Shown piece after piece: positions 707-17,130 of a DNA stretch of 17,130 nucleotides. How positions within the stretch are numbered: position 1 is the stretch's first letter; each line of letters begins with the position of its first letter. Origin of the DNA: an uncultured Planctomycetaceae bacterium (GTDB lineage Bacteria; Planctomycetota; Planctomycetia; Pirellulales; Pirellulaceae). The position numbers were made by a program, and so were the translations under genes. The stretch spans positions 1 to 17,130 of the forward strand of contig CAIYOB010000621.1 of NCBI GenBank assembly GCA_903927685.1, read 5' to 3'. The notes under the pieces are model-generated. The model ran no database searches and was not told the origin of the DNA. It saw only the letters and a list, made by a program, of their open reading frames with translations.

Positions 707-737
707 TCATTTCCGTGCGGGCTCTGCTGGCGGGCAG

Positions 738-1858: not shown

Positions 1859-1887
1859 ATTGTAATCGCTTGGGGGGAGACTCACAA
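1859..1887 (-). promoter_or_regulatory. Candidate sigma70-type promoter of the leuB-like gene
   Basis: On the minus strand TTGTGA (1887-1882) and TACAAT (1864-1859) are separated by exactly 17 nt. TACAAT matches the -10 consensus at 5 of 6 positions. Transcription would start near 1852, giving a leader of about 55 nt before the ATG at 1796. No operator or attenuator for leucine control was recognised in that short leader. Confidence 0.5.
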
Positions 1888-2036
1888 GTATCGGTTGGCG
1901 CCGGTTGGCACCCGTATGTCGGGCGGTCTGCACCGGGCGGTGGGGATGAGAGGGACCAGAAATGCCATCGGTGCCCGAGTGCCTTGTCCAGGCAGAGAAT
2001 TGGGGGTTGGGTGCCCGAATGCCCCACCGCACGGCA

Positions 2037-2061
2037 GGGCCAACGGCCGGGCCGTTGGCCC
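2037..2061. repeat. Perfect 11-bp inverted repeat (hairpin 1 of 3)
   Basis: Arms GGGCCAACGGC (2037-2047) and GCCGTTGGCCC (2051-2061) are perfect complements around a 3-nt loop. There is no U-tract on either side, so it is not a classical intrinsic terminator; it may be a REP-like extragenic palindrome or a Rho-assisted 3' end for the ThuA transcript. Confidence 0.75.
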
Positions 2062-2084
2062 TCTCGGTTGTGATTGTCCGGTTA

Positions 2085-2103
2085 CCCAGCCCGTTAGGCT
2101 GGG
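2085..2103. repeat. 7-bp inverted repeat (hairpin 2 of 3)
   Basis: CCCAGCC (2085-2091) pairs with GGCTGGG (2097-2103) around the loop CGTTA. It lies 23 nt from hairpin 1 and 7 nt from hairpin 3, so the three form one structured block. Confidence 0.65.
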
Positions 2104-2110
2104 CTAGGCA

Positions 2111-2140
2111 AACCGCTGGGCCTTCGGCCCGGAAACGGTT
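2111..2140. repeat. Two-part hairpin with TTC loop (hairpin 3 of 3)
   Basis: The inner stem pairs 2116-2122 with 2126-2132 (one T-G wobble) around a TTC loop. The outer stem pairs AACCG (2111-2115) with CGGTT (2136-2140), leaving an AAA bulge at 2133-2135. It is the first of the three structures met by transcription leaving the ThuA gene on the minus strand. Confidence 0.65.
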
Positions 2141-2252
2141 GCGTGGTTCCTCGGCCCGGAGGTCGCTCAGTTCCTTGGCGTCTCCAGGCCATGTTGATAT
2201 CGCGCACGGGCCTCGACGTACTTGCCTTGAGCGAGGTTCGGACGCAGCGAGT

Positions 2253-3167: not shown

Positions 3168-3205
3168 TCTTGGTACTCCTTGCTGACACTGCCATTTGTT
3201 GATCC

Positions 3206-3224
3206 GCCTGGAAACGTTCCAGGC
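3206..3224 (-). repeat. Intercistronic hairpin between the Gfo/Idh/MocA and ThuA genes
   Basis: An 8-bp perfect stem (3206-3213 with 3217-3224) with an ACG loop lies 10 nt after the oxidoreductase stop and about 40 nt before the ThuA start. It has no U-tract, so it could tune message stability or relative expression rather than end transcription. Confidence 0.5.
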
Positions 3225-3233
3225 ACACTCAGT

Positions 3234-4526
3234 CTACCGCATCACGATCTGTTCCTGATCCTTGTCCCACAGGGCGACCTTGTTTTCGCGGTGCGACAGG
3301 ACGCCCATCGACAGCGGCGCCTGCACGCGGACGGCCATGGCGATATTGCACTTGGGCTGCTGCCGGCTGTGGACGCATTCGAGCAGGTTCTCCCACAACT
3401 TGCGCGTATCGCCTTGGCCCTTCCACGGCAGCAGAATCTCCTTCTTGTCACCGCCGAACGGCACGATGCGGACCCCGTACTCCTTGCCGCCCTGCAGCAT
3501 GGCCCAGGTGATCAGGCCGTCGGTCCCGCGGATCGTCGTGTCCGCGGGCACGTGGTTGGACAGCGAGTTGGTCATGACCACGGTCGGGCCGCCCGGATAG
3601 TCGGCGATGATATTGCACTGGTCGGGCACCTCGCGGCTGTACTCGAAGGTCCCGCCACCGCCCAAGACCCGCTCGGGGTACCCGAGTTCCAGGACGCAGA
3701 AGATGGGTGTGAAGGTGTGCACCAGCAGGTCCGTGGCCGGGCCGCCGGCGTAGTCCCAGTACATCCGCCACTGGAAGAATCGCGAGACGGTGAAATCGAC
3801 CTTCGGGGCGTCGCCCAGGAACCGCTCCCACAGCAAATCGGGGCCGGGCTTGGCGTTCGGGTCCGGGATGGCCATCCGCTCGCCCCAGTCCCCGCGGCGA
3901 AAGTAGCTGCAGGTGACGTGCATCGGCTTGCCGATGACGCCGGCGCGGATCAAGCGGATGATCTCCGGATAGTTGTCGTCCGCCATGTGCTGCGTGCCGA
4001 CTTGCACCAACCGCTGGTTCTTGTCCGCCGCCGCCTGCACCTGCTTGGCCATCTCGAACTGGCTCCAATGCGTCAGCGGCTTTTCACAGTACACGTCCTT
4101 GCCGGCATTCAACGCGTCGATGGCCATCGGGGCGTGCAGTCGGTCGGGCGAAGCGATGCACACGACGTCGACGTTCTTGTCAGCCAGCAGGGCCTCGTGC
4201 TCCATGTACATCTTGGCCCCGCCCGTCTTCTGGCCGGCGGCTTCCAAGCGGGGCCGATAGACATCGCAGACCGCCACCGGTTCCGCGACGCCTTGCTCCT
4301 TGAATCCGTTGATGATGCCCAGGTGCGCCTGGCAGCGGCCGCCGACGCCGATGAACCCGACGCCGATTCGGTCGTTCGCGCCCCGCACCCGCTCGGCCGC
4401 CAGCACTCGCGGCACGGGATACGTCGCCGCAGCCGCCACCGCGCCGGCCGTGACCGTGGCCGCTGACTGCCGGAGAAAGGTCCGGCGGGAAGAGGTTTCC
4501 TGCTTGGTCTTGGATTCCCTCGTCAT
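3234..4526 (-). CDS. TAT-exported Gfo/Idh/MocA family oxidoreductase (first copy)
   Basis: A 430-residue protein with a twin-arginine signal (S-R-R-T-F-L-R-Q, arginines 14-15) and an Ala-rich hydrophobic segment ending near residue 45. Proteins with this signal are exported folded, so the dehydrogenase would carry its nicotinamide cofactor out of the cytoplasm. The Rossmann fold follows (G-F-I-G-V-G-G, about residues 57-63), with the acidic end of beta-2 in V-C-D-V and the family C-E-K-P motif (E148-K149-P150), whose lysine normally contacts substrate and cofactor. The C-terminal domain includes D-L-L-V-H. The family oxidises or epimerises sugars, inositols and related polyols; the substrate is not predictable here. 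The start at 4526 has AGGAG 8 nt upstream and gives a normal TAT N-region; the open frame runs 11 codons further. It sits between the GH123-like and ThuA genes on the same strand. Confidence 0.93.
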   Translation of the reverse strand: MTRESKTKQETSSRRTFLRQSAATVTAGAVAAAATYPVPRVLAAERVRGANDRIGVGFIGVGGRCQAHLGIINGFKEQGVAEPVAVCDVYRPRLEAAGQKTGGAKMYMEHEALLADKNVDVVCIASPDRLHAPMAIDALNAGKDVYCEKPLTHWSQFEMAKQVQAAADKNQRLVQVGTQHMADDNYPEIIRLIRAGVIGKPMHVTCSYFRRGDWGERMAIPDPNAKPGPDLLWERFLGDAPKVDFTVSRFFQWRMYWDYAGGPATDLLVHTFTPIFCVLELGYPERVLGGGGTFEYSREVPDQCNIIADYPGGPTVVMTNSLSNHVPADTTIRGTDGLITWAMLQGGKEYGVRIVPFGGDKKEILLPWKGQGDTRKLWENLLECVHSRQQPKCNIAMAVRVQAPLSMGVLSHRENKVALWDKDQEQIVMR

Positions 4527-4650
4527 CTGCAATTCTCCTCGTCGGCCGACGCCGCCCACAGACGCGAGGCCGGGACAGTCAGGCGAGCGACCAGCCGGCT
4601 CGGCAGCTTAGGCCCAGGTGTGCTCCAGGGGTCAGGTCGTGGATTGGTCT

Positions 4651-4675
4651 GCGGGGACTATTCTAGTCGCCCCGC
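4651..4675 (-). repeat. Hairpin between the GH123-like gene and the first oxidoreductase gene
   Basis: GACTA (4656-4660) and TAGTC (4664-4668) pair around a TTC loop, and the flanking GCGGG (4651-4655) pairs with CCCGC (4671-4675) past a 2-nt bulge. It lies 27 nt after the stop of the large upstream gene on the minus strand. No run of U follows, so it may attenuate rather than stop transcription into the oxidoreductase gene. Confidence 0.45.
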
Positions 4676-4701
4676 TGGCCGTTGCCGAGCCCCGGACCGA
4701 T

Positions 4702-7700
4702 TCAACGCCCGGATCGATTCAACCCCTCGATCGCTCGGGCGATCGTCCGGCGCGTCTGGTACAGGCGTTCGGGCTGTGGCAGGATGCGCGTCGAGTAATA
4801 CCCGCCGGCGTTGGGAATCTGGACCAGGCTGCGAGCTGCGGCCAGGGCCTGCTCCGCCTCGGCCACCGACCGACCGCTCCCGCGGGCCGACTGGATCCGG
4901 GCCGCGAGCAGGTGCAGATACTCGTAGTCCTCGACACCCTCGCGGGCTTGCTCCAGGCGGATGGAACTGACGGGACCGGGGTGGGCCGAGGGCGTGGCAG
5001 TGTCCGCGTTCTTGCCGCCGGGGACCTGCGGGACGCTCGGCGGTGGATAGATCAGGAAGCCGTCGCCGTTGGGATAGCGGACCCAAGTCGCCTGGCCGGG
5101 CTCGCTGGACTGGTGGATGAACGAGTGCCAGCCGAAACGATACGGGTCGTACGTCTGCCAGGCGACGCCCCAGAACTCGTAGGCCTGCGCGCCGTACTGG
5201 AAACAGTAGTGGGGCAACAGACGCTCGACGGCACAGTACGGTGTGTCCGTGCACATCTGGCCGTCCGTCGTGAACCAGACCCGCGCGCCGCCGGACCGCA
5301 GGCGGGCGATCGTGTCCGGCGGCACGAGGCCGTAGTGGCCGATGCCCCAGATGTTCAAGAACCCGTCCCACTCGGGCACGTGCTTCCAGGTGCTGGAGTA
5401 GATCGGGATCTCCGGATCGACCTCGTGGATCATGTCGCACAACGCCTTCATCTGCTGACGAATGCGTTCGTGCTGGTCGAACGGCTCATCGGAAATGTAC
5501 AGCACGACGCGACGGTTCCAGCCCTTGTCCCGGAGGTGCTGCCAGTACAGCCGCAGCATCGCCTGGTACGCCTGCTTGTATTCCGGCCGCAACCGGCCGC
5601 GGTCCGCCGACTCAAACGGCGACTCGCCCTCGTACGGACGCTCGCCGAAAACGGCCTTGGGGGGATGCCCCCAGCCGAACAGATACAGATCCCAGGGCGT
5701 GTAGGCAAACGGGAACTTCAATTCGTCGAAGTAGACCTGTGCCGCCTGGTCGAACGCCGTGAAGTCGGCAGTGACTTTGCCGTTCTCCCGGCGAAAGACC
5801 GGCCCGGGCTGGATCGTATCGGGACACAGGCGGCGGGCGGCCAGAAAACGGATGAGTTCCGGGTAGGCCGCGTCCAGCGACTGGCCCCACTGCCGGCCGC
5901 CGGAGCCAAATCGCACGTCATAGATGGCCGCGACGTGGCTCTCGTCCGGCAAGGCGAAATCCCAGACGTGCACGCGGAAGGGGATGGCGGCCAATTCGCC
6001 GTCCGGCGCCAACAGACGCACACGCCCCTGGTAGTCGCCCGCCGGGGCGTCCCGCGGGACGGTGACGGTGATCCAAATCGGTTGCGTGACATCAGCAGCC
6101 AACGCGCAGGTACTGACCGGCAGCAGCGGATCCGGCCACAAGCCGGGCCAGCCGTCCCCGCGGGCCGCACCGGCAGGGATCTTGCGCTGCCACGCCGGCG
6201 ACTGGCTCTGATAGTAGTTGCTGCGGCAATCGATCGGCACAAAGCCGACGACCTCGACGCGGACTCCGTCCAACGCCACGCCCTGCGGTCCGACAGGCGG
6301 CTCAACCTGGACTCGAACCTCCGGCACACTGCGGGCACTGCGAACGGCCAGCTGCAGCGCTTCCTGTTCGTTGCGAGCTGCTTCGATCTCGACGGCGGCA
6401 GGACTCGTCCTCGCATCCAGCGGCACGTCGTCCGGAAACACCTTGATGACCGCGGGGACTTGCCAGATGGCCAGGCCCGTTCCGGCGGGCGGCTGCTGCG
6501 ATTCGATCCGCAGCAGGTCGCCGGACGCGACCTCGACAACCGCCACGCTGTCGTGCCAGACCGTGCCGTGACCTTCCATCGTCAAGTGCAGTTGCAGCGT
6601 CGCCGTGTCGTCGGGCGTGGTCAGCGTGCCCAACATCAGCGTCCAGTCACCGGAGCCCGAGATCGCCGGTCCGACGCTGGCGAATCCGCCGCGCTGGGAC
6701 AGCTGCCCGTCCGCCGTGCGGAAATGCGCGTGCAGCCGGACGTCGCCGTCGTTGACATCCTGGCACTTGACCCAGGCCGAAACCAGGTACGCGCGGCCCG
6801 CCTGGACCGGGACGTCCTGCCGCCAGCCGCGCCACGCTTTCGGTGCCGAGGCGGGGACGTGCAGCCGGACGCAGCGAGCGCCAAACGCGTCTCGCCGGGG
6901 ATCGGCGACGTCGAGGGTGACGCCCTCCGGCGGCGAATCGCCCGTGGCGGTCCAGTCGGCGGGCAGTGGCTGGCCTTGTTCAAAGCTGGGATTGCGGACG
7001 AGATTGCAGGCCGAATCGGCCATTGTCGTGGTGCTGGCCTCCGCCGGGCCTGCCGGTGGATCCGCGGCCGCGCAGTAAACGTGAAAGACACTCAACGAAC
7101 GAGCCGGCAGGTCGGCGGCGCACAATAGCTGGTCGCCCAGCAGGCAGTGCTCGACCGCTCGCCCGTCGCGAGTGACCAGGATCGAGCCCAGATCCAGGCG
7201 TCCGCGCAGGCGGGCTTGCAGCCGGCCCAGTTCGATGGTGACGAGCGTCCGCGCGACCGCCGTCTCGCCCATGTTCAGCGTCTGGACGATCGCTCGATAC
7301 GGCCGCTGAACGCCGCTGCCGGACTCAGGCCAGGCTGCGTCCCTGCCGATTTCGCGCAAGTCCAGCGTTTCGACGGGCTGGATCGTGGACCGCAACGAGC
7401 CGGGGGACAGGCATTGCAGCACCGCATTGTCGAACCAGGTCGTGCCGGTCCCGCGCAGCACGGTGCCCAGATCCAAGCGGTCCGCCTCGGCTGGCGCCGT
7501 GAACTCCAAGGCGACCGATTTCCAGTCGAACGTTCCCTCGCCCGCGGGCAGCATGGGGGCGGTGAGCATCGGCTCGGCCTGGTTGCCGATGTGCAGGTAC
7601 CAGCCGCACATGCCGCGCACGGCTTGGGCCTTGACCCAGGCCTGCAGCCGATACCGCGCCCCGCCCACGATCGCGATGCCCTGCTGGCGCGTGGCGATCC

Positions 7701-8298
7701 AAGTCGGCTCGGCGCCGTCCGCGACCACGGTTTGCAGACAGCGGCTTCCGGACTGGGCTCCCGTGCTGCTCCACGCTGCCCGGTGCTGGTCGTCAGGCTG
7801 GTCGTGCACCCAGCCGTCGGGAACGCCGTCCTCGCCGAACTCCACATCGCCGTTGATCAAACCGGCGCGCGCCGGCAGGAAGTCGGGCACTTGGCCGGCC
7901 TGGGGGTTGTCACTGTAGACGTAGTACACCGCCGTCGCTGCGGGCGGGCATTCCACGGGGATGAGCAGCGTGCAGCCGTCGGGAATCGGGCCGCGTTCCA
8001 CCGCGCTGCCGCGGGAATCGCGCAGCACAAATAGCAGTTCCGTGCCGCGGGCATCACAGACGCGCACGGCTTCCGCTCGCTGGCCGGTCAGCGGCAGCTG
8101 GTTGGCGCCCGTCCCCACGACACAGGCAACGGGCAAGCCGCTCCAGGGTTGAGAGCCGTCGTTGGCGATCTGTACCGGTATCCGCTGGCGCCACCAGCCG
8201 CTGCCGTCCAGGTACAGCGGATGATGCCAGGGGGCGGCGAGTACGGCGGAGGTCCACAGAAGCAGTAATTCGGCAAGCAGCAAGGTCCGGCGTGTCAT
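4702..8298 (-). CDS. Large exported DUF4091/GH123-like glycosidase with carbohydrate-binding-type domains
   Basis: A 1198-residue protein. Residues 1-21 are a Sec signal peptide (M-T-R-R-T then a Leu-rich core to V-L-A-A). Residues about 33-145 resemble a DUF2341-type beta domain (G-W-W-R-Q-R-I-P-V, later V-Y-Y-V-Y-S-D-N-P). Two jelly-roll modules of CBM/CenC type follow at about 147-297 (N-G-D-V-E-F-G) and 432-590 (N-L-V-R-N-P-S-F-E-Q-G). A beta-rich domain covers about 615-780. The catalytic-type DUF4091/GH123 domain lies at about 785-1150, with Y-I-S-D-E-P-F (D937-E938) and the late signature R-L-E-Q-A-R-E-G-V-E-D-Y-E-Y. In GH123 N-acetylgalactosaminidases an adjacent Asp-Glu pair is catalytic, and D937-E938 fits that place. 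Activity on an N-acetylated glycan is inference; many DUF4091 proteins are uncharacterised. The start at 8298 begins the signal peptide, but no good ribosome site precedes it. Confidence 0.85.
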   Translation of the reverse strand: MTRRTLLLAELLLLWTSAVLAAPWHHPLYLDGSGWWRQRIPVQIANDGSQPWSGLPVACVVGTGANQLPLTGQRAEAVRVCDARGTELLFVLRDSRGSAVERGPIPDGCTLLIPVECPPAATAVYYVYSDNPQAGQVPDFLPARAGLINGDVEFGEDGVPDGWVHDQPDDQHRAAWSSTGAQSGSRCLQTVVADGAEPTWIATRQQGIAIVGGARYRLQAWVKAQAVRGMCGWYLHIGNQAEPMLTAPMLPAGEGTFDWKSVALEFTAPAEADRLDLGTVLRGTGTTWFDNAVLQCLSPGSLRSTIQPVETLDLREIGRDAAWPESGSGVQRPYRAIVQTLNMGETAVARTLVTIELGRLQARLRGRLDLGSILVTRDGRAVEHCLLGDQLLCAADLPARSLSVFHVYCAAADPPAGPAEASTTTMADSACNLVRNPSFEQGQPLPADWTATGDSPPEGVTLDVADPRRDAFGARCVRLHVPASAPKAWRGWRQDVPVQAGRAYLVSAWVKCQDVNDGDVRLHAHFRTADGQLSQRGGFASVGPAISGSGDWTLMLGTLTTPDDTATLQLHLTMEGHGTVWHDSVAVVEVASGDLLRIESQQPPAGTGLAIWQVPAVIKVFPDDVPLDARTSPAAVEIEAARNEQEALQLAVRSARSVPEVRVQVEPPVGPQGVALDGVRVEVVGFVPIDCRSNYYQSQSPAWQRKIPAGAARGDGWPGLWPDPLLPVSTCALAADVTQPIWITVTVPRDAPAGDYQGRVRLLAPDGELAAIPFRVHVWDFALPDESHVAAIYDVRFGSGGRQWGQSLDAAYPELIRFLAARRLCPDTIQPGPVFRRENGKVTADFTAFDQAAQVYFDELKFPFAYTPWDLYLFGWGHPPKAVFGERPYEGESPFESADRGRLRPEYKQAYQAMLRLYWQHLRDKGWNRRVVLYISDEPFDQHERIRQQMKALCDMIHEVDPEIPIYSSTWKHVPEWDGFLNIWGIGHYGLVPPDTIARLRSGGARVWFTTDGQMCTDTPYCAVERLLPHYCFQYGAQAYEFWGVAWQTYDPYRFGWHSFIHQSSEPGQATWVRYPNGDGFLIYPPPSVPQVPGGKNADTATPSAHPGPVSSIRLEQAREGVEDYEYLHLLAARIQSARGSGRSVAEAEQALAAARSLVQIPNAGGYYSTRILPQPERLYQTRRTIARAIEGLNRSGR

Positions 8299-8361
8299 GG
8301 GACAACTCACAAAACGGCGTGATGAAGACAAACAAGAGGTTAAGGACTCAGGATTGCCGGG

Positions 8362-8435
8362 GTGGCTGTGGTCGAGTGCCGCGAGCCCACCGTCCGCGGG
8401 CATTCCGGGGGCTCGCTGCGCTCGACCCCGGCCAC
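8362..8435. repeat. Long imperfect inverted repeat, GCGAGCCC family (copy 1)
   Basis: Arms of 27 nt (8362-8388 and 8409-8435) fold around a 20-nt loop with two mismatches (8369/8428 and 8380/8417) and two T-G wobbles. The core GTCGAG-x-GC-x-GCGAGCCC recurs in the palindrome at 9977-10029 on the other side of the oxidoreductase gene. No transposase gene is attached. It looks like a REP or MITE-like intergenic palindrome. Confidence 0.8.
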
Positions 8436-8499
8436 GCTTCCCTTGCTTCTCCTCATTAACCTCGTACCACTCGCGGTGCAGGCGGCCGCGATTCGCGTC

Positions 8500-8529
8500 T
8501 TGACTTGGCTATCGCCTTGTCCCCACAAT
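8500..8529 (+). promoter_or_regulatory. Possible promoter of the second Gfo/Idh/MocA gene
   Basis: TTGACT (8500-8505) is 5/6 to the -35 consensus and is followed after 18 nt by CACAAT (8524-8529), 4/6 to the -10. Transcription would start about 75 nt before the ATG at 8614. Confidence 0.35.
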
Positions 8530-8613
8530 ACTACCTGCTTTCCCTGCCGCGGCATATTGGTCGGCTCCCGCCTGCCAGCCTGGCCCCACCCTATTTCCCG
8601 AAAGGACCTCACC

Positions 8614-9948
8614 ATGACCGTAACTCGTCGTTCGTTCCTCCAACGCACCGCTGCAGCGGCCGTTGCGGCTCCGTTCATCCTGCCGTCGCGGATCTGGGCC
8701 GCCGAGACGCCGCCGAATTCGCGGCTGACGATGGGCTTCATCGGCATGGGCAAGCAGAACAAACACCTGCTGGGCGGCTTCCTCGGTTCCGAAACCCAGG
8801 TTCTCGCGGTCTGCGACGTGGACACCAATCGCCGTGACGCGGCCAAGAAGCGGGTTGACGAGTACTATGCCAGCCAGGCGGGACGAGGCGGCGACTGTGC
8901 GGCCTACAACGACTTCAACGAGATCATCGCCCGCAAGGATATCGACGCCGTCTGCATCGCCACGCCGGACCACTGGCACACGATCATCATGCTGGCGGCG
9001 CTGCGGGCCGGCAAGGACGTGTATTGCGAAAAGCCGCTGACGCACAACGTGCACGAGGCCATCGAAGTCATCCGGGCCGTGGACGCCAACCAGCGGGTCC
9101 TGCAAACCGGTTCGATGCAGCGCTCGTCGAAGGAATTCCGCGTCGCCTGCGAACTGGTCTGCAACGGTGCGATCGGCAAGCTGGAACGCGTCGAGTGCAG
9201 CTTTGGCGATCCCGGAGTCCCGTGCAATCTGCCGGAGGAGCCGATGGAGCCCGGCTTGGATTGGAACCTGTGGGTGGGTCCTGCCCCGATGCGGCCGTAC
9301 AATTCCGTGCTCAGCCCGCGCGGCTTGCACGACCATTTCCCGAACTGGCGAGCCTATCGCGAATTCGGCGGCGGCATGGTCACGGATTGGGGCGCCCATC
9401 ATCTGGATATTGCCCAATGGGCGCTGGGCGACAACGGTCCGGTCGAGGTACTGCCGCCGGAGAAGGAGGGCGCCAAGCGAGGGGCCAAGTTGGTCTATGC
9501 CAACGGCGTGACCGTCGAGCACAAGGATGGTTTCGGCGTCCACTTCTACGGCACGGAGGGCGAGGTCCAGGTGAACCGCGGCAAATTCACCTTCCAACGC
9601 GGTGACCAGATGATTGCGTCCTTCACAGGACGCGAAGAAGGGGAAAAGAAGACGTCCTGTGCCGCCCAGGTCCAAATCGCCGAACGCGACTTCCTGAAAG
9701 ACGCCAAGGTCAAACTGTACGACAGCAAGAACCACCTGGGCAATTTCTTGGACTGCGTCAAGGACCGCACCAAGCCGATCACCAGTGAACAGGTTGGCGG
9801 CCGCACGGCAATCTGCTGCCACCTGATGAACCAGGTGTACTACCACCAACAGAAGATCCAGTGGGATCCGGAGAAGTTCGCCCTGGTCGGCGGCACCGGC
9901 GATCCCGCCTGGCTGACCCGCGAGTATCGCAGTCCGTGGAGCGTGTAG
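8614..9948 (+). CDS. TAT-exported Gfo/Idh/MocA family oxidoreductase (second copy)
   Basis: A 444-residue protein. It opens with T-R-R-S-F-L-Q (arginines 5-6), an Ala-rich hydrophobic stretch and W-A-A near residue 30, a standard twin-arginine signal. The Rossmann fold follows with G-F-I-G-M-G (residues 41-46), V-C-D-V-D, A-T-P-D-H-W-H and the family E139-K140-P141. The C-terminal alpha/beta domain carries D-W-G-A-H-H-L-D-I (D258 to I266), a motif common in planctomycete members and containing the histidine usually placed at the active site. The protein would oxidise or isomerise a sugar derivative in the periplasm with a pre-loaded cofactor. The start is clear: AAAGGA lies 8 nt upstream and the TAT N-region begins there. 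It is divergent from the GH123-like gene and clearly distinct in sequence from the first copy, so it is not a recent duplicate. The substrate is unknown. Confidence 0.93.
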   Translation: MTVTRRSFLQRTAAAAVAAPFILPSRIWAAETPPNSRLTMGFIGMGKQNKHLLGGFLGSETQVLAVCDVDTNRRDAAKKRVDEYYASQAGRGGDCAAYNDFNEIIARKDIDAVCIATPDHWHTIIMLAALRAGKDVYCEKPLTHNVHEAIEVIRAVDANQRVLQTGSMQRSSKEFRVACELVCNGAIGKLERVECSFGDPGVPCNLPEEPMEPGLDWNLWVGPAPMRPYNSVLSPRGLHDHFPNWRAYREFGGGMVTDWGAHHLDIAQWALGDNGPVEVLPPEKEGAKRGAKLVYANGVTVEHKDGFGVHFYGTEGEVQVNRGKFTFQRGDQMIASFTGREEGEKKTSCAAQVQIAERDFLKDAKVKLYDSKNHLGNFLDCVKDRTKPITSEQVGGRTAICCHLMNQVYYHQQKIQWDPEKFALVGGTGDPAWLTREYRSPWSV

Positions 9949-9976
9949 CAGCAGCTGTACGTGTGGGTGAATTGAA

Positions 9977-10029
9977 TCGATCGCAGCGAGCCCGCGGAAC
10001 AGATTGGACGTCGGGCTCGCTGCACTCGA
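9977..10029. repeat. Imperfect inverted repeat, GCAGCGAGCCC family (copy 2)
   Basis: Arms 9977-9994 and 10012-10029 pair at 16 of 18 positions (mismatches at 9981/10025 and 9982/10024) around a 17-nt loop. The core TCGA-xx-GCAGCGAGCCCG matches the arms of the palindrome at 8362-8435. It begins 28 nt after the stop of the second oxidoreductase gene and could also form its transcript 3' end. Confidence 0.75.
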
Positions 10030-10113
10030 AGACGGGTGAAAGATAAGGGTACACATGGTCTGGGGTACATCTGGTCCCAGCCATACAGGAACCCGGTCTC
10101 GACCTCCCATTCA

Positions 10114-10133
10114 CCCTCCCGCTTGCGGGAGGG
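10114..10133 (-). repeat. GC-rich hairpin downstream of the thioredoxin lipoprotein gene
   Basis: CCCTCCCGC (10114-10122) and GCGGGAGGG (10125-10133) are perfect 9-nt complements separated by TT; in RNA this is most likely an 8-bp stem with a 4-nt loop. It lies about 35 nt past the minus-strand stop at 10168 and could end that transcript, although no U-tract follows. The same short palindrome is, from memory, frequent between genes in many high-GC bacteria. Confidence 0.6.
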
Positions 10134-10167
10134 GCGGACGCGGTAGCGGCCGGGGAGGGCTGCCGCC

Positions 10168-10821
10168 TTAGTTCGAGGCCGCGGCTCGATGTCCCGCGTC
10201 CTGCTCCAGCAATCGTTCGACCCAGGGCGCGATGTGCTTTTCGTACGTAAAGCCCTCGTCGCCGTACAAGCTGTCGTCGTTGTCAAACCGCTTGGACAAC
10301 TGGCCATCCGGGCCATAGACCAGCACGGCGGGGATCGAGCCCAGTTTCTGACGCCGAAACACTTCGTCCGCCGCGTCGCTGCAGATCACGTTCTCGAACG
10401 TGGCGCCGTGCTTGGTCAAAAACTCGCTGACCGCCGGACGGAACGACTCCGGGGTCTCCCCGGCTGCGCCGGAATAGTCCAGGTTGACGCCCAGGCAGAC
10501 GACATCGTCCGCGTGGTCCCGCTGCAACTTGACCAGGTTCGGGAACTCGCGGACGCAGGGAACGCACCAGGTCGACCACAGATCGAGGACGACCACCTTG
10601 CCCGAGTGAGCCGCGAGCCGTTTCTGGGTCTCGTCCCAGCTGGTCACGGCCAGCCGGAGCGTCGCTGGCTGTGGTGCCGGTGTGACGTTGCCCATCGGCG
10701 CCGCCGGGACGGCCGGTTCGTGGCTCCCGCTGGGCTGCGTTGCCGGCGGCCCCGCCGGACGCTCGCCACAGCCGAAGCAGGACAGGAGGATCAGGCCAAC
10801 ACAGGCGTGAGTTCGTTTCAT
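10168..10821 (-). CDS. TlpA/ResA-like thioredoxin-fold lipoprotein
   Basis: A 217-residue envelope protein. The first 18 residues are a lipoprotein-type signal (hydrophobic V-G-L-I-L-L-S-C-F-G-C-G; acylation at C18 or less likely C15), followed by a Pro/Ala-rich linker to about residue 52. The thioredoxin fold has the active site W85-C86-V87-P88-C89 after the strand K-V-V-V-L-D-L-W, and the cis-proline region G-S-I-P-A-V-L-V-Y-G (P164). An insertion between these, including L-D-Y-S-G-A-A-G-E-T-P, is typical of AhpC/TSA-TlpA relatives. Such proteins reduce or exchange disulfides outside the cytoplasm. Its neighbour 101 bp upstream on the same strand is the candidate selenoprotein, so this may be its electron partner; that is inference. 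No clear Shine-Dalgarno precedes the ATG at 10821, which was chosen because the signal peptide starts there. Confidence 0.88.
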   Translation of the reverse strand: MKRTHACVGLILLSCFGCGERPAGPPATQPSGSHEPAVPAAPMGNVTPAPQPATLRLAVTSWDETQKRLAAHSGKVVVLDLWSTWCVPCVREFPNLVKLQRDHADDVVCLGVNLDYSGAAGETPESFRPAVSEFLTKHGATFENVICSDAADEVFRRQKLGSIPAVLVYGPDGQLSKRFDNDDSLYGDEGFTYEKHIAPWVERLLEQDAGHRAAASN

Positions 10822-10860
10822 GGCTTCGCGCGGGGAAAGAAAATTCGGGGGAGAAACAAG

Positions 10861-10890
10861 GCACGCCCCGAGCGAGTGCCCGGGGCGCGC
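10861..10890 (-). repeat. GC-rich intercistronic hairpin in the redox pair
   Basis: CGCCCCG (10864-10870) pairs with CGGGGCG (10881-10887) around a 10-nt loop; GC/GC pairs extend it on the outside past one mismatch (10863/10888). It lies 33 nt after the stop of the candidate selenoprotein gene and 40 nt before the start of the thioredoxin lipoprotein gene. It might adjust the ratio of the two products. Confidence 0.45.
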
Positions 10891-10922
10891 CGAAGGACGC
10901 AGAAACAGGGGCTGGGTGCCCG

Positions 10923-11483
10923 CTAGTCGAGGATGGCTTTCGTCCCCTCGACAATCCCCTTGACGGCCTCTGCGTTCAGGCCGCCGACGGGAACCGCGTG
11001 ATTGGCTTTCACCGTCTTGCCCTTGTAGTGCATCACGGTGACCGCCGCTTGGTCGTTGATCTTGAACCGGTCGGCGTCGGCGGTAATCGTCAACGCGACG
11101 TTCTTCAGGTTGTGCTTCGTGCCGAACTCGGCGATCTTCGCCTTGTAGTCGTCGGTGGGCTCGCCGATGAAGTTGATCACGGCAGCGAGCTTCTTCTCCT
11201 GGTTTTCCGCGACGAGCTTGTCGATCTGCTTGGCCAAACTGGCCAAGGCGTCATCGGGCGTCTTTGCCAAGGCAAAAACGACCGGACGGCCGCCCAGCCG
11301 TCACGTATAGCACAACGATTTCCCGAGGTCGACGCCGTCGTCGGCGCCTCCACTCTTCGTGCACGAGTAGCTCCCGATCGGATCGCCGACCGGGATGCCG
11401 CTGGTGAATCCCTCGGCCCGCAGGCACGAGGCGGCGGTGCACAGCAACAAGGCTGCTGCCACCCACTGACCTTGGACTTTCAT
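10923..11483 (-). CDS. Candidate selenoprotein: exported thioredoxin-like protein with in-frame TGA in a Cys-x-x-TGA motif
   Basis: Read through one TGA, this frame gives 186 residues. The ATG at 11483 has AGGAG 9 nt upstream. A signal peptide (residues 1 to about 23, V-A-A-A-L-L-L-C-T-A-A-S-C-L-R-A) is followed by G-I-P-V-G-D-P-I-G-S-Y-S, G-K-S-L-C58-Y-T, then the TGA (codon 61, 11303-11301), then R-L-G-G-R-P-V-V-F-A-L and a regular alpha/beta protein to the stop at 10923. The late V-T-V-M-H-Y-K-G-K-T-V strand pair is thioredoxin-like. From memory, planctomycete relatives read G-K-x-L-C-Y-R-C-K-Y-G-x-R-P here, which puts a Cys where the TGA is. I therefore read C58-x-x-U61, a selenocysteine redox pair. 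The motif precedes the first core strand, unlike classical thioredoxin, so the role is uncertain. Alternatives are a nonsense mutation, a sequencing error, or two separate small genes (the second from TTG 11270). Confidence 0.6.
11259..11303 (-). promoter_or_regulatory. Candidate SECIS-like stem-loop region directly after the in-frame TGA
   Basis: Bacterial selenocysteine insertion needs an RNA hairpin just 3' of the UGA. On the minus strand the nine bases after TGA (11300-11292) pair fully, with wobbles, to 11287-11279 around a GGCC loop; A and G of the UGA can add two more pairs. A second 9-bp stem follows (11280-11272 with 11267-11259, loop CTTG). An alternative wobble-rich fold puts a GTCC loop 13 nt after the UGA. 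Bacterial SECIS loops normally lie about 16-37 nt after the UGA with a G in the first two positions. The G-first loops here are a little close, and the well-placed second loop lacks the early G, so the match is partial. Confidence 0.35.
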
Positions 11484-11674
11484 AAGTTGCTTCTCCTTTT
11501 CCACGAAAACACAACGACACCATCGCCGCCCGGTGGGCACCCAGCGCACGTCCGTGGCGGCATCCATCAACGTTCCCCGATATCTTACCCGCTGCCGGAG
11601 GCGAGGGAAAGGCAACCCCGGGAAAGGCCCGTCGGCCGCGAGCTTGCCAGAATCCCTGGAAAGAGCGAACATAA

Positions 11675-11692
11675 AAGGTGTCGGGGCACCTT
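11675..11692 (+). repeat. Small hairpin in the lon-like gene leader
   Basis: AAGGTG (11675-11680) pairs with CACCTT (11687-11692) around TCGGGG, ending 18 nt before the protease ATG and 10 nt before its AAAGGT ribosome site. From memory, close relatives of this short palindrome are scattered between genes in planctomycetes, so it may be a repeat rather than a control element. Confidence 0.45.
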
Positions 11693-11710
11693 CCGTTCAG
11701 AAAGGTCACC

Positions 11711-14122
11711 ATGCAAGACACCCAAGCCTTGTCGCCGCAACAGCTGTGCTGGCATTGCGACCCCGCACAGTTCAACTTCGAGACGACGGAGCAACTGGAT
11801 GACTTGAGCGAGTTCGTCGGCCAGACGCGCGCGCTGGACGCGGTCCGGTTCGGCATCGCGATCCGCCGCGAAGGCTATAACCTGTACGTCCTGGGCCCTC
11901 CGGGCGTCGGCAAGCGGACGATCGTCAAGTCGTTTTTGGAGCAGAAGTCGGCGGACGAACCGCGGCCGGACGACTGGTGCTACGTCAATAACTTTGCCGA
12001 TCCACAGCAGCCCCGCGCGTTGCGGCTGCCGGCCGGCCGGGGCGGGAAACTGGTCCAGGACCTGGGGATTCTGATCGAGGACTTGCGGGCCGCCATTCCC
12101 GCCGCGCTGCAAATGGACGAGCATCGGACCCGGCTGCAGGAAGTCGAGGACGAGGTCAAGGAGCGACAATCCAAGGCTTTTCAACAGCTGGCCGAAAAGG
12201 CGGAACAACAAGGCATCCAGCTGATTCGGACGCCGGGCGGGTTTGCCTTGGCTCCGCTCCGCGAGGGCGAAGTCCTGAGCCCGGAGGAGTATGAAAAGCT
12301 GAGCGGCGACGAGCGGGAGCGGATCCAGGTCGCGGTGGAAGAACTGCAGGCGGAATTGCGGGCGTTGGTCGAGAAGCTGCCCCAGTGGCGGAACGAGATC
12401 CGCCGCAAGATCAAAGAGATCAACCAGGAGGCGACCCGGTTTGTCGTCGGCCAGTCGCTGGCTCAGTTGCGCAACTGGTACACGGACCTGCCGCAAGTGC
12501 TGAAGTACCTGGACGCCTTGGAAGCCAACGTGAGCGAACGGGCCGACGAATTCCAGCCGGCGGACGAAGAGTCGGCGGATCCGCTCGGCGGCCTGGCCCG
12601 CCGCCGCCAGTTGGCCGACGCGTACCGCGCGAATCTGATCGTCGAGAACAGTCAGACCAAGGGCGCGCCGGTCGTCTATCTCGAGCACCCCAGCTATGTC
12701 AACCTGGTCGGCCGCGTCGAGCACGAGACGCAGATGGGGACCCTGGTGACGGACTTTACCCTGATCAAACCCGGTGCGTTGCATCAGGCCAACGGCGGGT
12801 ACCTGGTCGTCGAGGCCATCCGCCTGTTGCAGCAGCCGTTCGCCTGGGAGGCGCTCAAACGGGCGCTGTACTCGCGGCACATCCAGATCGAATCACTCGG
12901 CGAGAGCCTGAGCCTGCTGAGCACCGTGTCGCTCGAACCGGAGCCGATCCCGCTGGACGTGAAAGTCGTGTTGCTGGGCGACCGGATGCTGTACTACCTG
13001 CTGTACCAGTACGACCGCGATTTCGCCGAACTGTTCAAAGTCGCCGCGGACTTTGAGGAGGAGATGGACCGCACGCCCGAGAACTGCCAGCTGTACGCCC
13101 GGCTGATCGCCACGCTGGTGCGGCGTGAAGGCCAGTTGCCGTTCGACCGCACGGCGGTGGCCCGCGTGCTGGAGCACAGCGCCCGCGTCGCGGCCGATTC
13201 GGAGAAACTGACGACGCACATGCGCACCGTGGCGGACCTATTGCGAGAATCGGACTATTGGGCCACGCACGACGGCGGGGTGTGCGTCAACGCCCGGCAC
13301 GTCCAGCAGGCCATCGATAAACAGGTCTATCGCTCGGAGCGTCTGCGGGAACACGTGCTGGAAGAGATTCGCCGCGGGACGCTGCTGATCGACACCAGCG
13401 GGAGCGTGGTCGGCCAGGTCAACGGCCTGTCGGTCCTGGACCTGGGCTGCTTCTCCTTCGGCCGCCCGTCGCGGATCACGGCCACGGCCCGGTTGGGCAA
13501 GGGCGAAGTCATCGACATCGAGCGGGAAGTCGAGTTGGGCGGCGCCATCCACTCCAAGGGCGTGCTGATCCTGTCGTCGCTGCTCACGGCGCGGTACGCA
13601 CAGCGGCATCCGTTGTCGGTTTCCGCCAGTCTGGTATTTGAACAGTCCTACGGTCAGGTCGATGGCGACAGCGCGTCGGTCGGTGAGTTGTGCGCCCTGC
13701 TGTCGGCGCTGGCGAGCGTGCCGATCAACCAGGCGCTGGCCGTCACCGGGTCCGTCAACCAGCTGGGCCAGGTCCAGCCGATCGGCGGAGTGAACGAAAA
13801 AATCGAGGGCTTCTTCGATGTCTGCCGAGCACGGGGGCTGAGCGGCGAGCACGGGGTGTTGATCCCGGCGTCGAATGTCAAGCACTTGATGTTGCGTCAG
13901 GACGTCGTCGCCGCGGCCGCAGCCGGCCAGTTCCAGATCTGGCCGATCGAGACCGTCGACCAGGCGTTGAGCCGGCTGACCGGACTGCCCGCCGGCGAAC
14001 CCGATGCCGAGGGCCGCTACCCCGCGGGAACGATCAATCACCGGATTTCGGAACGGCTCTGGGAGTTGTTTCAGTTGCGGCAGAGATACAATGCGGAATC
14101 GCAGACGGAGAAACCCAAATGA
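11711..14122 (+). CDS. Lon-family ATP-dependent protease (AAA plus S16 protease domain)
   Basis: An 803-residue protein of the Lon-like family with an N-terminal ATPase and a C-terminal S16 peptidase, not classical LonA (no LAN substrate domain). Walker A is G-P-P-G-V-G-K-R-T (residues 62-70). A long charged helical insertion, probably coiled coil, covers about 130-260. A-N-G-G-Y-L-V-V-E-A (360-369) occupies the Walker B position. The peptidase domain runs from about 560, with the catalytic serine in D-G-D-S-A-S (S654) and lysine in V-N-E-K-I-E-G (K697). Their spacing of 43 equals S679-K722 of E. coli Lon. It should degrade damaged or regulatory proteins in the cytoplasm with ATP. The start at 11711 follows AAAGGTCACC; the frame extends 11 codons further, without a ribosome site. 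It overlaps the next gene by ATGA, so they are translationally coupled. Confidence 0.93.
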   Translation: MQDTQALSPQQLCWHCDPAQFNFETTEQLDDLSEFVGQTRALDAVRFGIAIRREGYNLYVLGPPGVGKRTIVKSFLEQKSADEPRPDDWCYVNNFADPQQPRALRLPAGRGGKLVQDLGILIEDLRAAIPAALQMDEHRTRLQEVEDEVKERQSKAFQQLAEKAEQQGIQLIRTPGGFALAPLREGEVLSPEEYEKLSGDERERIQVAVEELQAELRALVEKLPQWRNEIRRKIKEINQEATRFVVGQSLAQLRNWYTDLPQVLKYLDALEANVSERADEFQPADEESADPLGGLARRRQLADAYRANLIVENSQTKGAPVVYLEHPSYVNLVGRVEHETQMGTLVTDFTLIKPGALHQANGGYLVVEAIRLLQQPFAWEALKRALYSRHIQIESLGESLSLLSTVSLEPEPIPLDVKVVLLGDRMLYYLLYQYDRDFAELFKVAADFEEEMDRTPENCQLYARLIATLVRREGQLPFDRTAVARVLEHSARVAADSEKLTTHMRTVADLLRESDYWATHDGGVCVNARHVQQAIDKQVYRSERLREHVLEEIRRGTLLIDTSGSVVGQVNGLSVLDLGCFSFGRPSRITATARLGKGEVIDIEREVELGGAIHSKGVLILSSLLTARYAQRHPLSVSASLVFEQSYGQVDGDSASVGELCALLSALASVPINQALAVTGSVNQLGQVQPIGGVNEKIEGFFDVCRARGLSGEHGVLIPASNVKHLMLRQDVVAAAAAGQFQIWPIETVDQALSRLTGLPAGEPDAEGRYPAGTINHRISERLWELFQLRQRYNAESQTEKPK

Positions 14123-14913
14123 GCGCCGAGGAGGAAGAGACACCGGTCGCGCGGCGGATTGTCGTAACCCTGGACGCTTCCGCTTGCGGGCGCGCTGCTC
14201 TCGAGACCGCGGCGGAACTGGCGGCCCAGATGCAGGCCGAGTTGTGGGGCCTGTTCGTCGAGGACGTCGCTCTGCTGCGTTTGGCGAATCTGCCCTTGGC
14301 CAGCGAAGTCCCCCTCCCCTGCGCCGTCCCCCGTCCCCTGGAGCCCGTCCGGATTCAGAATGCGTTGCGTCTGCACGCCGAGCGGGTCCGGCAAGCACTG
14401 GCCGAAGCCGCTGACCGCCGGCAACTCCGCTGGTCCTTCCAGGTGCTGCAGGGCGACGTGGTGCGGACCAGCCGAGCGCTCGCCGAACAGGCGGAACTGT
14501 TGATCCTGGGTTGGGCCGAAATGGTCGCCAGTGGCGTGTCGGCCGGCGCGCTGCGGGCCGCGACAGGCTCGATCCTGGTCATCGACGAAGGTCCCCCCGG
14601 CGGTGATCGCGTGCTTCGCGCCGCCGTCGCGCTCGCCCAGTTGCTGGGAAGCGAACTGTTGGTGCTCCGCCCCGAGGGCTCGGGCGATGAGGGTGCGGCG
14701 GGCCCTAGCCCGCGCGCGGGACTGTTGTCGACCGGCGGCGTCCAGTTCGCACTTCAGCCGCTGCCCCAGCTGACGGCAAAGGCGATCGTCGCAGCGGCCG
14801 AACGTCTGCGGGGCCGGCGGGTGCTGCTGGTCCTGGGCAGCGCGTTGCTAAGCGAATCCGAAGTCGATATCTTAGTGAAGCAACTGGAATGCCCCTTGGT
14901 GCTGGTCCCGTGA
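14119..14913 (+). CDS. Universal stress protein (UspA)-like protein
   Basis: A 264-residue cytoplasmic protein with no signal or membrane segment. Residues about 11-150 have the UspA pattern: a first strand R-R-I-V-V-T-L-D-A-S, a helix rich in Ala, the strand E-L-W-G-L-F-V-E-D-V, a variable loop, a long helix, then S-F-Q-V-L-Q-G-D-V-V and A-E-L-L-I-L-G-W-A. The ATP-binding G-x2-G-x9-G pattern is not evident. The second half (about 160-264) repeats the strand-helix rhythm weakly (L-L-G-S-E-L-L-V-L-R, then R-V-L-L-V-L-G and P-L-V-L-V-P) and may be a degenerate second Usp unit. Its ATG overlaps the stop of the Lon-family gene, with GGAG in the end of that gene as ribosome site, so the two are co-expressed and a link to proteolysis under stress is plausible. 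Assignment is by fold pattern only. Confidence 0.7.
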   Translation: MSAEEEETPVARRIVVTLDASACGRAALETAAELAAQMQAELWGLFVEDVALLRLANLPLASEVPLPCAVPRPLEPVRIQNALRLHAERVRQALAEAADRRQLRWSFQVLQGDVVRTSRALAEQAELLILGWAEMVASGVSAGALRAATGSILVIDEGPPGGDRVLRAAVALAQLLGSELLVLRPEGSGDEGAAGPSPRAGLLSTGGVQFALQPLPQLTAKAIVAAAERLRGRRVLLVLGSALLSESEVDILVKQLECPLVLVP

Positions 14914-14924
14914 AAGGTACGCGG

Positions 14925-15428
14925 ATGGACAGTCAATTGCAGATCGCGATCCGGCAGATCGAGTTTGCCCGGGCCTACACCCTGACGCTGCTCGACGGCC
15001 TGCTGGACGACGACTGGTTCCGCCAGCCGGCCGAAGGAGTCACGCACGTCGCGTGGCAAGTCGGCCACCTGGCGATGGCCGAGTACGGCCTGTGCCTGTT
15101 TCGCCAGCGGGGCCGGCAGCCGGAAGATCTGGATTTGATGTCCAGCAAGTTTCGCAAGCAGTACAGCAAGGGCTCGCAGCCGGACCCCGATCCGGCCAAC
15201 AACCCCGCTCCAGCCGAACTGCGGCAGACCCTGGAGCGAGTCCATCAGCAGGCCCTGAGCGAACTGGCCGCGTGCCATGAAGCCCAGTTGGCCGAGCCGA
15301 TCGACCAGCCGTATGCGGTCACGCCGACCAAGCTGGGCGCGCTGTTCTTCTGCTCGCACCACGAGATGCTGCACGCCGGCCAGATCGGCTTGCTCCGCCG
15401 CCTGTTGGGCAAATCGCCCGTACGGTAG
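14925..15428 (+). CDS. DinB-like (DinB/YfiT superfamily) putative metal-dependent protein
   Basis: A 167-residue, mostly helical cytoplasmic protein. The DinB-like four-helix bundle is suggested by the first helix (Q-I-A-I-R-Q-I-E-F-A-R), by W-Q-V-G-H48-L-A-M-A-E-Y, and by the late F-C-S-H-H146-E-M-L-H150-A-G-Q-I-G-L-L-R-R. These provide the three histidines that usually hold a metal ion. Members are thiol- or substrate-transferases of largely unknown target, some induced by DNA damage. The ATG at 14925 has AAAGG 8 nt upstream. A GTG at 14910 overlaps the preceding stop (GTGA) and would add five residues, so the gene is in any case nearly contiguous with the Usp-like and Lon-family genes and probably belongs to one transcript with them. 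No damage-response (LexA-type) box was recognised. Confidence 0.8.
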   Translation: MDSQLQIAIRQIEFARAYTLTLLDGLLDDDWFRQPAEGVTHVAWQVGHLAMAEYGLCLFRQRGRQPEDLDLMSSKFRKQYSKGSQPDPDPANNPAPAELRQTLERVHQQALSELAACHEAQLAEPIDQPYAVTPTKLGALFFCSHHEMLHAGQIGLLRRLLGKSPVR

Positions 15429-16143
15429 CGGTGCGGGACGCGCAGTGCTGGTGACGCAGCGAGGTCTTGTGGTAAGGCATCGACTTGAGCCGTCTTCCCC
15501 AGCGCGCGAGAATGTTGCCGCCACCCTTGCAGACGGTCGGAGAGTACCGGGCCGCACTTGACGCGGCTTCGAAGCCCGCGCCTGCAGTTGGCTGGGCATT
15601 GGCTGGTTCACCCACGGATGGCGAAGCCGTCCCCAGATTTCAGCCTGCGAGTTTTCCAGGGTTTCGACTGCCCAGCTTGGCGCCGGAGGACTGATACCCG
15701 CCGTTCGCCTTGGGCAACGAAATCTCCCAATCCGGATTTGGCGGCGACGGGAAATCGCGATAGGATATGGGCTTGGGACTGACGAATGGGTTGCTGTCGG
15801 CAAGTTACGACGGGCTCGGGTGACGGCGAGCGGGACGGTGATCGCAGGCCGGGTACGCAGCCGCCTCCGGGTTGCCTTTGTACCGCACGCGGTTGATCCT
15901 GCCTGATACCCGAAACGCCAGCGAGAGGGCGGCATTCCACTGGGCCTTGATCGGAGTGTCACTCGCCGTAACCCGTGGCGATGGCGGGAGAGCGGGGATT
16001 TGTTTCCCACTCGCTGGCGCTTCGGGCTATCGTGGGGGCCGCGGAAGGTGCCAGCCTCCGTCGCGTGCGGTATGGACGGGACAGGTTCCTGTTCGTCGGT
16101 CTGCCTCTCCCATCCATTGCTTGCCTGCGGGGAAAACACATAT
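15429..16143. other. 715-bp stretch without a convincing gene, containing a palindromic repeat
   Basis: Between the DinB-like gene and asnS no frame has a recognisable product on either strand. Several long open frames cross it, but their translations are Arg/Pro/Ser-rich shadows of high-GC sequence. Its right third holds the spaced inverted repeat at 15916-16019, and the leader of asnS must lie to the right of that. A 54-codon minus-strand open stretch (15804-15643) reads somewhat like protein but has no start codon. The region may contain eroded gene remnants. Confidence 0.55.
15916..16019. repeat. Spaced inverted repeat with CGCCAGCGAG arms
   Basis: CGCCAGCGAGAGGG (15916-15929) is complementary to CCCACTCGCTGGCG (16006-16019) at 13 of 14 positions, with 76 nt between the arms. 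From memory the CGCCAGCGAG-TGGG arm is a very common intergenic repeat in Pirellula-like planctomycetes and often gives spurious small ORFs. The element ends 124 nt upstream of asnS. Confidence 0.7.
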
Positions 16144-17130
16144 ATGGACAAGATTCGCGTTGTCGAGGCGCGTCGGCCGGAATCGATCGGGCGGACGGTG
16201 TGCGTGCAGGGTTGGATCCGGACCCGCCGTGATTCCAAGGGCGGATTCAGTTTTCTCGAGGTGAACGACGGCTCCTGCTTGGGTAATCTGCAGGTGATCG
16301 CCGAGGCCGGACTGGCCAACTACGAGACGGAGTTGAAACGGCTCTCCGCGGGGTGCAGCGTCACGGTTGTCGGCTTGGTCAAGGCGTCCGGCGGCCAGGG
16401 GCAAGCGACGGAAGTCCTGGCCCAGCAGGTGACCGTGCACGGCTGGGCGGACCCCGAGGCCTATCCACTTCAGAAAAAACGGCACTCGTTCGAGAAACTG
16501 CGGGAATGGGCCCATTTGCGGCCGCGGACCAACAGCTTCAGCGCGGTCACGCGGGTCCGCAACTGCGTTTCCCGCTCGATTCACAACTTCTTCCAGGAAG
16601 AGGGCTTCGTCTATATCCATACGCCGATCATCACCGCCAGCGACTGCGAGGGCGCCGGCGAGATGTTCCGCGTCACGACGCTGGACCTGAACCAGGTACC
16701 CAAAAAGGATGGCCAGATCGATCATAGCTTGGACTTCTTCGACCGCCCCGCCTACCTGACAGTCAGCGGACAATTAGAGGCCGAAATATTTGCTACCGCA
16801 ATGAGCAAGGTGTACACGTTCGGCCCGACGTTTCGAGCCGAGAATTCCAATACCTCGCGGCACTTGGCCGAATTCTGGATGGTCGAGCCGGAGATGGCTT
16901 TTTTCGAGCTGACCGACAACATGGATCTGGCCGAGCGGTTCCTGAAACGCATCTGCCGCGATGTGCTGGCCCAGTGTGACGAAGACATGCAGTTCTTCAA
17001 CGAGCGGATCGACCCCACGGCGATTGAGACTGTGCGGCAGATCATCGACTACGATTTTGTCCGGTTGCCGTACACCGAGGCGATCGAGATTCTGAACTCG
17101 AGCGGCACGACTTTCGAGTACCCTGTCTCG
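16144..17130 (+). CDS. asnS: Asparaginyl-tRNA synthetase (3' end outside the window)
   Basis: The first 329 codons are present and the frame is still open at the right edge. The enzyme charges tRNA-Asn with asparagine using ATP in the cytoplasm. Residues about 16-110 form the anticodon-binding OB fold (G-R-T-V-C-V-Q-G-W-I-R-T-R-R-D-S-K, then F-L-E-V-N-D-G-S). The class II catalytic domain follows: F-F-Q-E-E-G-F-V-Y-I-H-T-P-I-I-T-A-S-D-C-E-G-A-G-E-M-F marks the motif 1 region, and F226-G-P-T-F-R-A-E with S-R-H-L-A-E-F-W-M-V-E-P-E is motif 2. The sequence S-D-C-E-G-A-G and the E-P-E-M-A-F end of motif 2 are as in bacterial AsnRS rather than AspRS. Motif 3 is beyond the edge. The start ATG at 16144 has GGGGA about 11 nt upstream, a longish spacing. 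It is separated from the DinB-like gene by 715 bp and is probably its own transcription unit. Confidence 0.95.
   Translation, partial: MDKIRVVEARRPESIGRTVCVQGWIRTRRDSKGGFSFLEVNDGSCLGNLQVIAEAGLANYETELKRLSAGCSVTVVGLVKASGGQGQATEVLAQQVTVHGWADPEAYPLQKKRHSFEKLREWAHLRPRTNSFSAVTRVRNCVSRSIHNFFQEEGFVYIHTPIITASDCEGAGEMFRVTTLDLNQVPKKDGQIDHSLDFFDRPAYLTVSGQLEAEIFATAMSKVYTFGPTFRAENSNTSRHLAEFWMVEPEMAFFELTDNMDLAERFLKRICRDVLAQCDEDMQFFNERIDPTAIETVRQIIDYDFVRLPYTEAIEILNSSGTTFEYPVS

Follow-up and report, generated by a model that had tools for sequence, protein, structure and literature searches.

Introduction

In thioredoxin-fold enzymes such as Tpx, Bcp and ResA/TlpA, the catalytic cysteine follows the central strand of the fold. 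Here, we describe a gene whose redox pair is predicted to lie ahead of that position and to contain selenocysteine (Sec, U). It occupies positions 10923..11483 on the minus strand of a stretch of 17,130 nucleotides from an uncultured Planctomycetaceae bacterium of the family Pirellulaceae (contig CAIYOB010000621.1 of GenBank assembly GCA_903927685.1, positions 1 to 17,130; this whole stretch is called the window). A sequence-only reading of the window had proposed a new selenoprotein at this place, and that interpretation is strongly supported by a TGA that recurs at the same codon in relatives, by Cys-containing homologues, by a hairpin typical of the family and by the Sec machinery of related genomes. 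The gene very probably encodes an exported thioredoxin-like protein (export being suggested by a likely signal peptide), and UGA codon 61 is very likely decoded as Sec. Its family, found in Planctomycetota, has both Sec and Cys forms.

Sec genes and putative selenoproteins have been described in two planctomycetes (PMC4807772), and a 2026 catalogue lists 119 selenoprotein families and subfamilies (PMC13188914). In its covered parts, the C-x-x-U selenoproteins (e.g., SelenoW-like, AhpD-like, Trx7/PDZ and the thiol peroxidase Prx-SUH) share with the window protein the Sec three residues after Cys and the recoding of UGA, but they differ from it in that none of 90 members of the family described here matched the selenoprotein models of NCBIfam 20.0 at E 0.01. 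The comparison covers the NCBIfam models and, for catalogue families with a Pfam domain only, the Pfam matches of 10 members. The UxxC TlpA-like and redoxin selenoproteins of the same source resemble a neighbour gene found in one relative (L013, see below), not the window protein itself. The family was not found in the literature searched on planctomycete selenoproteins and novel selenoprotein families, a scope that excludes table S9 of PMC4807772, and in the parts of PMC13188914 examined, neither the family nor the name stem "planctomycet" was found. What emerges is an apparently uncatalogued family within a known kind of selenoprotein, whose redox pair occupies an unusual position.

Results

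The frame under study runs from ATG at 11483 to TAG at 10925-10923 on the minus strand and comprises 187 codons including the stop, or 186 residues by read-through. Its sole internal stop is TGA at 11303-11301, three codons past Cys58 (GKSLCYT*RLGGRPVVFAL, where the asterisk is codon 61), which bears out the sequence-only reading on this point. The features of the gene, all on the minus strand, are the following:

10923..11483, minus strand: gene of the very probable selenoprotein (186 residues, Sec at codon 61, stop TAG), from the frame and its homologues
11493..11498, minus strand: Shine-Dalgarno-like AAGGAG close 5' of the ATG, read from the sequence
11415..11483, minus strand: likely export signal peptide, codons 1-23, likewise read; predicted local distance difference test (pLDDT) low over residues 1-20
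11310..11312, minus strand: Cys58 codon, encoding the residue paired with Sec in C-x-x-U; 132 of 133 homologous genes have Cys here
11301..11303, minus strand: codon 61, TGA very likely read as Sec; TGA in 59, Cys in 73 and Ser in 1 of 133 genes
11255..11284, minus strand: candidate selenocysteine insertion sequence (SECIS) hairpin, nucleotides (nt) 20-49 counted from the U of UGA, apical loop at nt 33-36; strong for the family only

Coding character had been claimed to continue across the TGA. Indeed, the GC content at third codon positions is 0.82 upstream and 0.87 downstream of it, compared to 0.67 to 0.90 in ten other frames measured. The open frame alone is weak evidence, since about 4% of random frames of the same composition reach an open stretch of 125 codons; homology, however, places the gene far beyond chance.

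A search of the read-through translation against about 5.8 billion proteins yielded 63 homologue clusters, 59 of which start at window residues 63-80, i.e., just past codon 61. At the protein level, these late starts look like the trace expected of genes cut by annotators at a recoded stop, in line with the earlier suggestion that gene callers would truncate such genes. The four clusters that span codon 61 (P0014, P0019, P0036 and P0063) all have Cys there. At the DNA level, a locus in a metagenome-assembled genome of a Pirellulaceae member (L001) is 59% identical and reads C-Y-T-TGA-R-L-G-G-R-P-V-V. The DNA of relatives around this genome was searched in a phylum sample of 392 genomes and a family set of 241 genomes, with matches in 54 and 138 genomes, respectively. 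The 69 places listed for the phylum sample comprise 20 with exactly one TGA and 49 without a stop; no TAA or TAG was found in them.

Genes were retrieved for every listed place of the phylum sample and for the listed TGA places of the family set except G605:C97, plus some others; six duplicate loci and L114, which was without a match, were left out. In the resulting 133 planctomycete genes, codon 61 is TGA in 59, TGC in 60, TGT in 13 and TCT in 1, although the TGA share is no census because only part of the family-set places was retrieved. Codon 58 encodes Cys in all but one gene, which has Arg. Hence, nearly all homologues without TGA have Cys at codon 61, and the TGA recurs in many genomes. 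The most frequent motif in the family is CYRC, as the sequence-only reading had stated for planctomycete relatives.

Six genomes carry both Sec and Cys forms. One TGA member has Arg in place of Cys58 (R-Y-Y-U, L128:480-1058), and its genome also holds one C-Y-R-U and one C-Y-R-C copy. The Ser form, C-Y-A-S (L108), has Ser at the Sec position, and its genome contains both SelB and tRNA-Sec. At another locus, two TGA members lie adjacent on one strand (L081:492-1037 and 1133-1696).

Could the TGA have arisen by chance from a Cys codon, through a nonsense mutation in a pseudogene or a sequencing error? TGA is one base from both TGC and TGT, and decay does occur at times in the family, as a C-Y-R-C copy (L137:483-1046) has an in-frame TAG elsewhere, at codon 98. 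But this is the only other premature stop among the 133 genes (stops at residues 183-188 of homologues are natural ends), and divergent planctomycetes have TGA at codon 61 in 58 further genes. Furthermore, codon changes in 14 non-overlapping pairs indicate purifying selection both upstream and downstream of the TGA, with 169 synonymous versus 137 non-synonymous changes before it and 437 versus 235 after it, so that the decay looked for in relatives is not the pattern seen. With 59 of the 63 database clusters cut just after this codon as well, we give a pseudogene or an error next to no probability.

Trees were built with codon 61 masked, one with 129 rows and one with 108 rows (24 near duplicates or long branches removed, three Cys proteins added). 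They require at least four changes between Sec and Cys. The Cys forms P0014, P0019 and P0036 sit within the 11-member clade of the window gene (support 100/99), and Sec forms are present to either side of the midpoint; as the trees are unrooted, they do not fix the direction of the changes.

The Sec machinery was scored with cut-offs of E up to 1e-60 for SelB and up to 1e-10 for tRNA-Sec, and genomes whose listed places show no TGA formed the non-TGA class. With both sets merged, SelB or tRNA-Sec was present in 49 of 52 TGA genomes versus 26 of 118 genomes without a listed TGA (Fisher p 7e-20, uncorrected for the tree); a looser count of the latter, 34 of 131, adds 11 genomes with unlisted places, G265 (the Ser form) and G313 (an unconfirmed place). 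The family set contributes 33/35 versus 23/92 (29/103 once those 11 with unlisted places are added) and the phylum set 17/18 versus 4/34 (6/36 with G265 and G313). The machinery is also common in family-set genomes without a homologue (59/103), and therefore, the contrast is one with carriers of non-TGA forms. As the genes that the sequence-only reading had named as a check, SelB, tRNA-Sec and SelD were found in all nine, and SelA in eight, of the relatives' genomes that hold the nearest TGA relatives of the window gene. SelA and SelD were each absent from six controls, which had been picked among genomes already without tRNA-Sec and without SelB over the cut-off. In six of the nine genomes, the SelD gene itself contains an in-frame TGA, and therefore, Sec decoding is very likely in use in those relatives. 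The three SelD genes read (L155-L157) have the TGA in G-G-G-U-A-C-K, with hairpins downstream, one with a GGUCU loop and one with an AGUCU loop; genome G578 has two SelD copies of this type.

An open frame alone does not identify the inserted residue, and an altered genetic code or leaky decoding might insert Trp or Cys at the TGA. However, TGA terminates the window frames 2253-3167, 4702-8403 and 11678-14122 and is the natural stop in 25 of the 132 family genes with a seen stop. Homologues without the TGA carry Cys or, once, Ser, never Trp, and SelB and tRNA-Sec accompany the TGA form. The probability of such a decoding is minimal.

Folding after codon 61 was compared between 58 TGA genes (one of the 59 was dropped for an N) and 73 Cys genes, with synonymous recodings of the same peptide as coding-aware controls. 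In the 51 nt after codon 61, the mean folding z is −1.64 in TGA genes and −0.29 in Cys genes (p 1.5e-10), compared to −0.12 to −0.36 for both groups in control stretches upstream and 40 codons further. Sampled structures of TGA genes have one apical loop at nt 32-38, peaking with 0.85 at nt 35, whereas the highest apical-loop value in Cys genes is 0.43, at nt 34. At the published spacing, hairpins have a mean z of −2.17 in the 58 TGA genes and −0.41 in the 73 Cys genes. The SECIS criteria given in the covered parts of PMC13188914 are a spacing of 16-37 nt, a loop of 3-9 nt and a minimum free energy of −7.5 or lower; with any loop sequence, such a hairpin is found in 57/58 TGA genes, yet also in 61/73 Cys genes, and at −12 or lower in 53/58 versus 33/73. 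The window gene can form a hairpin of −19.3 at spacing 29, and an 8-nt loop GCCTTGGC is possible at −16.8. In seven close relatives tested beside it, 0 to 17 of 200 shuffles were as stable. The hairpin marks the TGA genes and is weak in the Cys genes with coding controlled for; it is strong evidence for the family, not for the window gene alone.

Family proteins had no significant Pfam or NCBIfam family match, including the TlpA/ResA and Tpx/Bcp families. One of the 90 members matched deiodinase_rel (E 0.0042), and the window protein, at E up to 1, gave TsoA at 0.16, far under the cut-off. A plasmid search gave no match, and a search of PDB sequences with the family profile returned only a de novo design (E 0.12). 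An AlphaFold2 model from 90 aligned members, with Cys placed at 61, has a pLDDT of 91.4 and a predicted template modeling score (pTM) of 0.85. Its overall fold is, as modeled, thioredoxin-like, with Tpx, Bcp and ResA/TlpA nearest among the families that the structural search listed. The order of elements is E41-46, H59-63, E68-73 and H78-93 (E, strand; H, helix). By this order, C58-Y-T-U61 would be on the short helix 59-63 ahead of strand 68-73 and thus ahead of the usual redox position, whereas in TlpA/ResA and Tpx/Bcp (AhpC-TSA) the redox Cys comes after the central strand. At the usual place after strand 68-73, the window protein has K-T-P-D and no Cys. The term "thioredoxin-like" of the sequence-only reading therefore agrees with the predicted fold, but the motif is away from its usual place in that fold. 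Positions conserved to at least 90% are Gly33, Gly46, Gly54, Leu57, Tyr59, Gly64, Pro67, Leu83, Asp88 and Val150, as well as Phe at position 72, which is Leu in the window protein. Codons 1-23 likely encode an export signal peptide, and some relatives (e.g., L001 and L053) have the look of lipoproteins.

The fold also bears on whether the TGA is a true stop and the downstream frame a separate gene with its own start. Gene callers predict just such downstream proteins, and 56 of the 59 TGA genes have ATG, GTG or TTG within 25 codons past the TGA. However, the first start-type codon lies 2 to 68 codons off, at varied places, and for the first ATG, the median distance is 55 codons (9 genes with none counted as far). 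The segment preceding the TGA and the strands that follow it are predicted to make up a single fold, the Cys forms are single proteins, and two separate genes would leave the links to the hairpin and to the Sec machinery unexplained. We consider this explanation highly improbable.

Downstream of the window gene, at a distance of 101 nt, lies a possible redox partner, with two features to be noted:

10168..10821, minus strand: gene of a TlpA/ResA-like thioredoxin lipoprotein, likely redox partner; Pfam Redoxin and AhpC-TSA
10555..10566, minus strand: CVPC redox motif, codons 86-89 of the TlpA-like partner

Redoxin and AhpC-TSA were matched over the cut-off, the NCBIfam TlpA/ResA models under it, and TlpA/ResA proteins of the PDB by sequence. 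Neighbours were surveyed at 56 loci (21 TGA, 35 others), with flanks that did not exceed 1.5 kb (L001 and the window apart) and were in some cases cut by contig ends. A TlpA-like gene is near 11 of the 21 TGA loci, in 10 of them downstream on the same strand, and near 3 of the 35 others, where it shares the strand in a single case. In one relative, the TlpA-like lipoprotein gene downstream of the TGA member (L013:2154-2855) has an in-frame TGA at the position of the first Cys of its W-x-x-W-C-x-x-C motif (W-A-L-W-TGA-S-H-C); by its similarity to TlpA/ResA, it is likely a second selenoprotein beside the first. Comparison of the family profile with the TlpA partner gave only a weak C-terminal match (prob 2.6).

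Upstream of the window gene and divergent from it is a gene for a LonB/LonC-like protease. Elsewhere in the window, 4702-8403 encodes a protein of 1233 residues in which glycoside hydrolase 123 domains are combined with carbohydrate-binding ones, and a ThuA gene and two Gfo/Idh/MocA genes are near it.

Discussion

A nonsense mutation, two separate genes and an altered code were each considered and rejected on the grounds of recurrence, selection, a single fold, other TGA stops and Sec machinery. Several observations nevertheless speak against Sec at codon 61 or reduce the weight of what favors it. Three TGA genomes (G613, G614 and G315) have neither tRNA-Sec nor SelB over the cut-off, and the machinery evidence is drawn from genomes of relatives, not from the window organism's own genome. 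The association is strong by count but comprises few events, because correction for kinship leaves two independent pairs on the tree. The window hairpin alone is not significant (z −0.75; 43 of 200 synonymous shuffles as stable), and its 51-nt folding z is −0.49. Loops with G first at −7.5 or lower occur in 38/58 TGA and 41/73 Cys genes, so that enrichment is not clear. RNAalifold found no common structure in the TGA set, and pairing of third positions in a fixed register is modest (0.500 versus 0.425 in shuffles; 8 of 2000 reach the observed value), with one other register giving a similar pairing z; perhaps the poor yield of RNAalifold and covariation is due to shifting stem registers. Finally, as a TlpA-like gene is found at 11/21 TGA and 3/35 other loci, the pairing with TlpA is not general.

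In our model, SelB and Sec-tRNA would read UGA at codon 61, aided by a hairpin that presents its apical loop some 30 nt downstream of this codon. The pair Cys58-Tyr-Thr-Sec61, predicted to lie on a short helix that precedes the first central strand, would alternate in the extracytoplasmic space between a reduced selenolate/thiol state and an oxidized selenenylsulfide. Electrons may be delivered to, or taken from, the TlpA-like lipoprotein encoded next to it, via the CVPC motif of that lipoprotein. Co-located selenoprotein genes often act together, according to the covered parts of PMC13188914, and with the TlpA-like neighbour this favors a dithiol/selenol-disulfide exchange between two exported proteins. 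We put the chance of such an exchange with the TlpA-like partner just short of even; the direction of electron flow, the substrate and the contact between the partners are assumptions of the model. A real possibility, at a chance somewhat below even, is that the protein is a selenoprotein whose C-x-x-U acts instead as a peroxidase, binds a metal or metalloid, or serves in scavenging. However, the window protein has no Cys at the usual peroxidatic position, and the conservation of Cys58 nearly equals that of residue 61, pointing to a dithiol-type pair.

Returning to disulfide exchange, a broader scenario would be an old selenium redox relay in the planctomycete envelope, consisting of the exported C-x-x-U protein, with its active pair at a new place of the fold, and a TlpA-like lipoprotein that is itself sometimes a selenoprotein, with several lineages going from Sec to Cys upon loss of the machinery. 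As a whole, this scenario is rather unlikely; the covered parts of PMC13188914 describe Sec-to-Cys reversion as rare in bacteria.

The family would add to the 119 selenoprotein families and subfamilies of PMC13188914, as far as its covered parts go. Its database entries are mostly fragments (59 of 63 clusters), and its C-x-x-U pair appears to sit where thioredoxin-fold enzymes normally have none. Since Sec and Cys forms exist side by side, the family offers a natural test of the benefit of selenium to an extracytoplasmic redox protein, as well as of the gain and loss of Sec.
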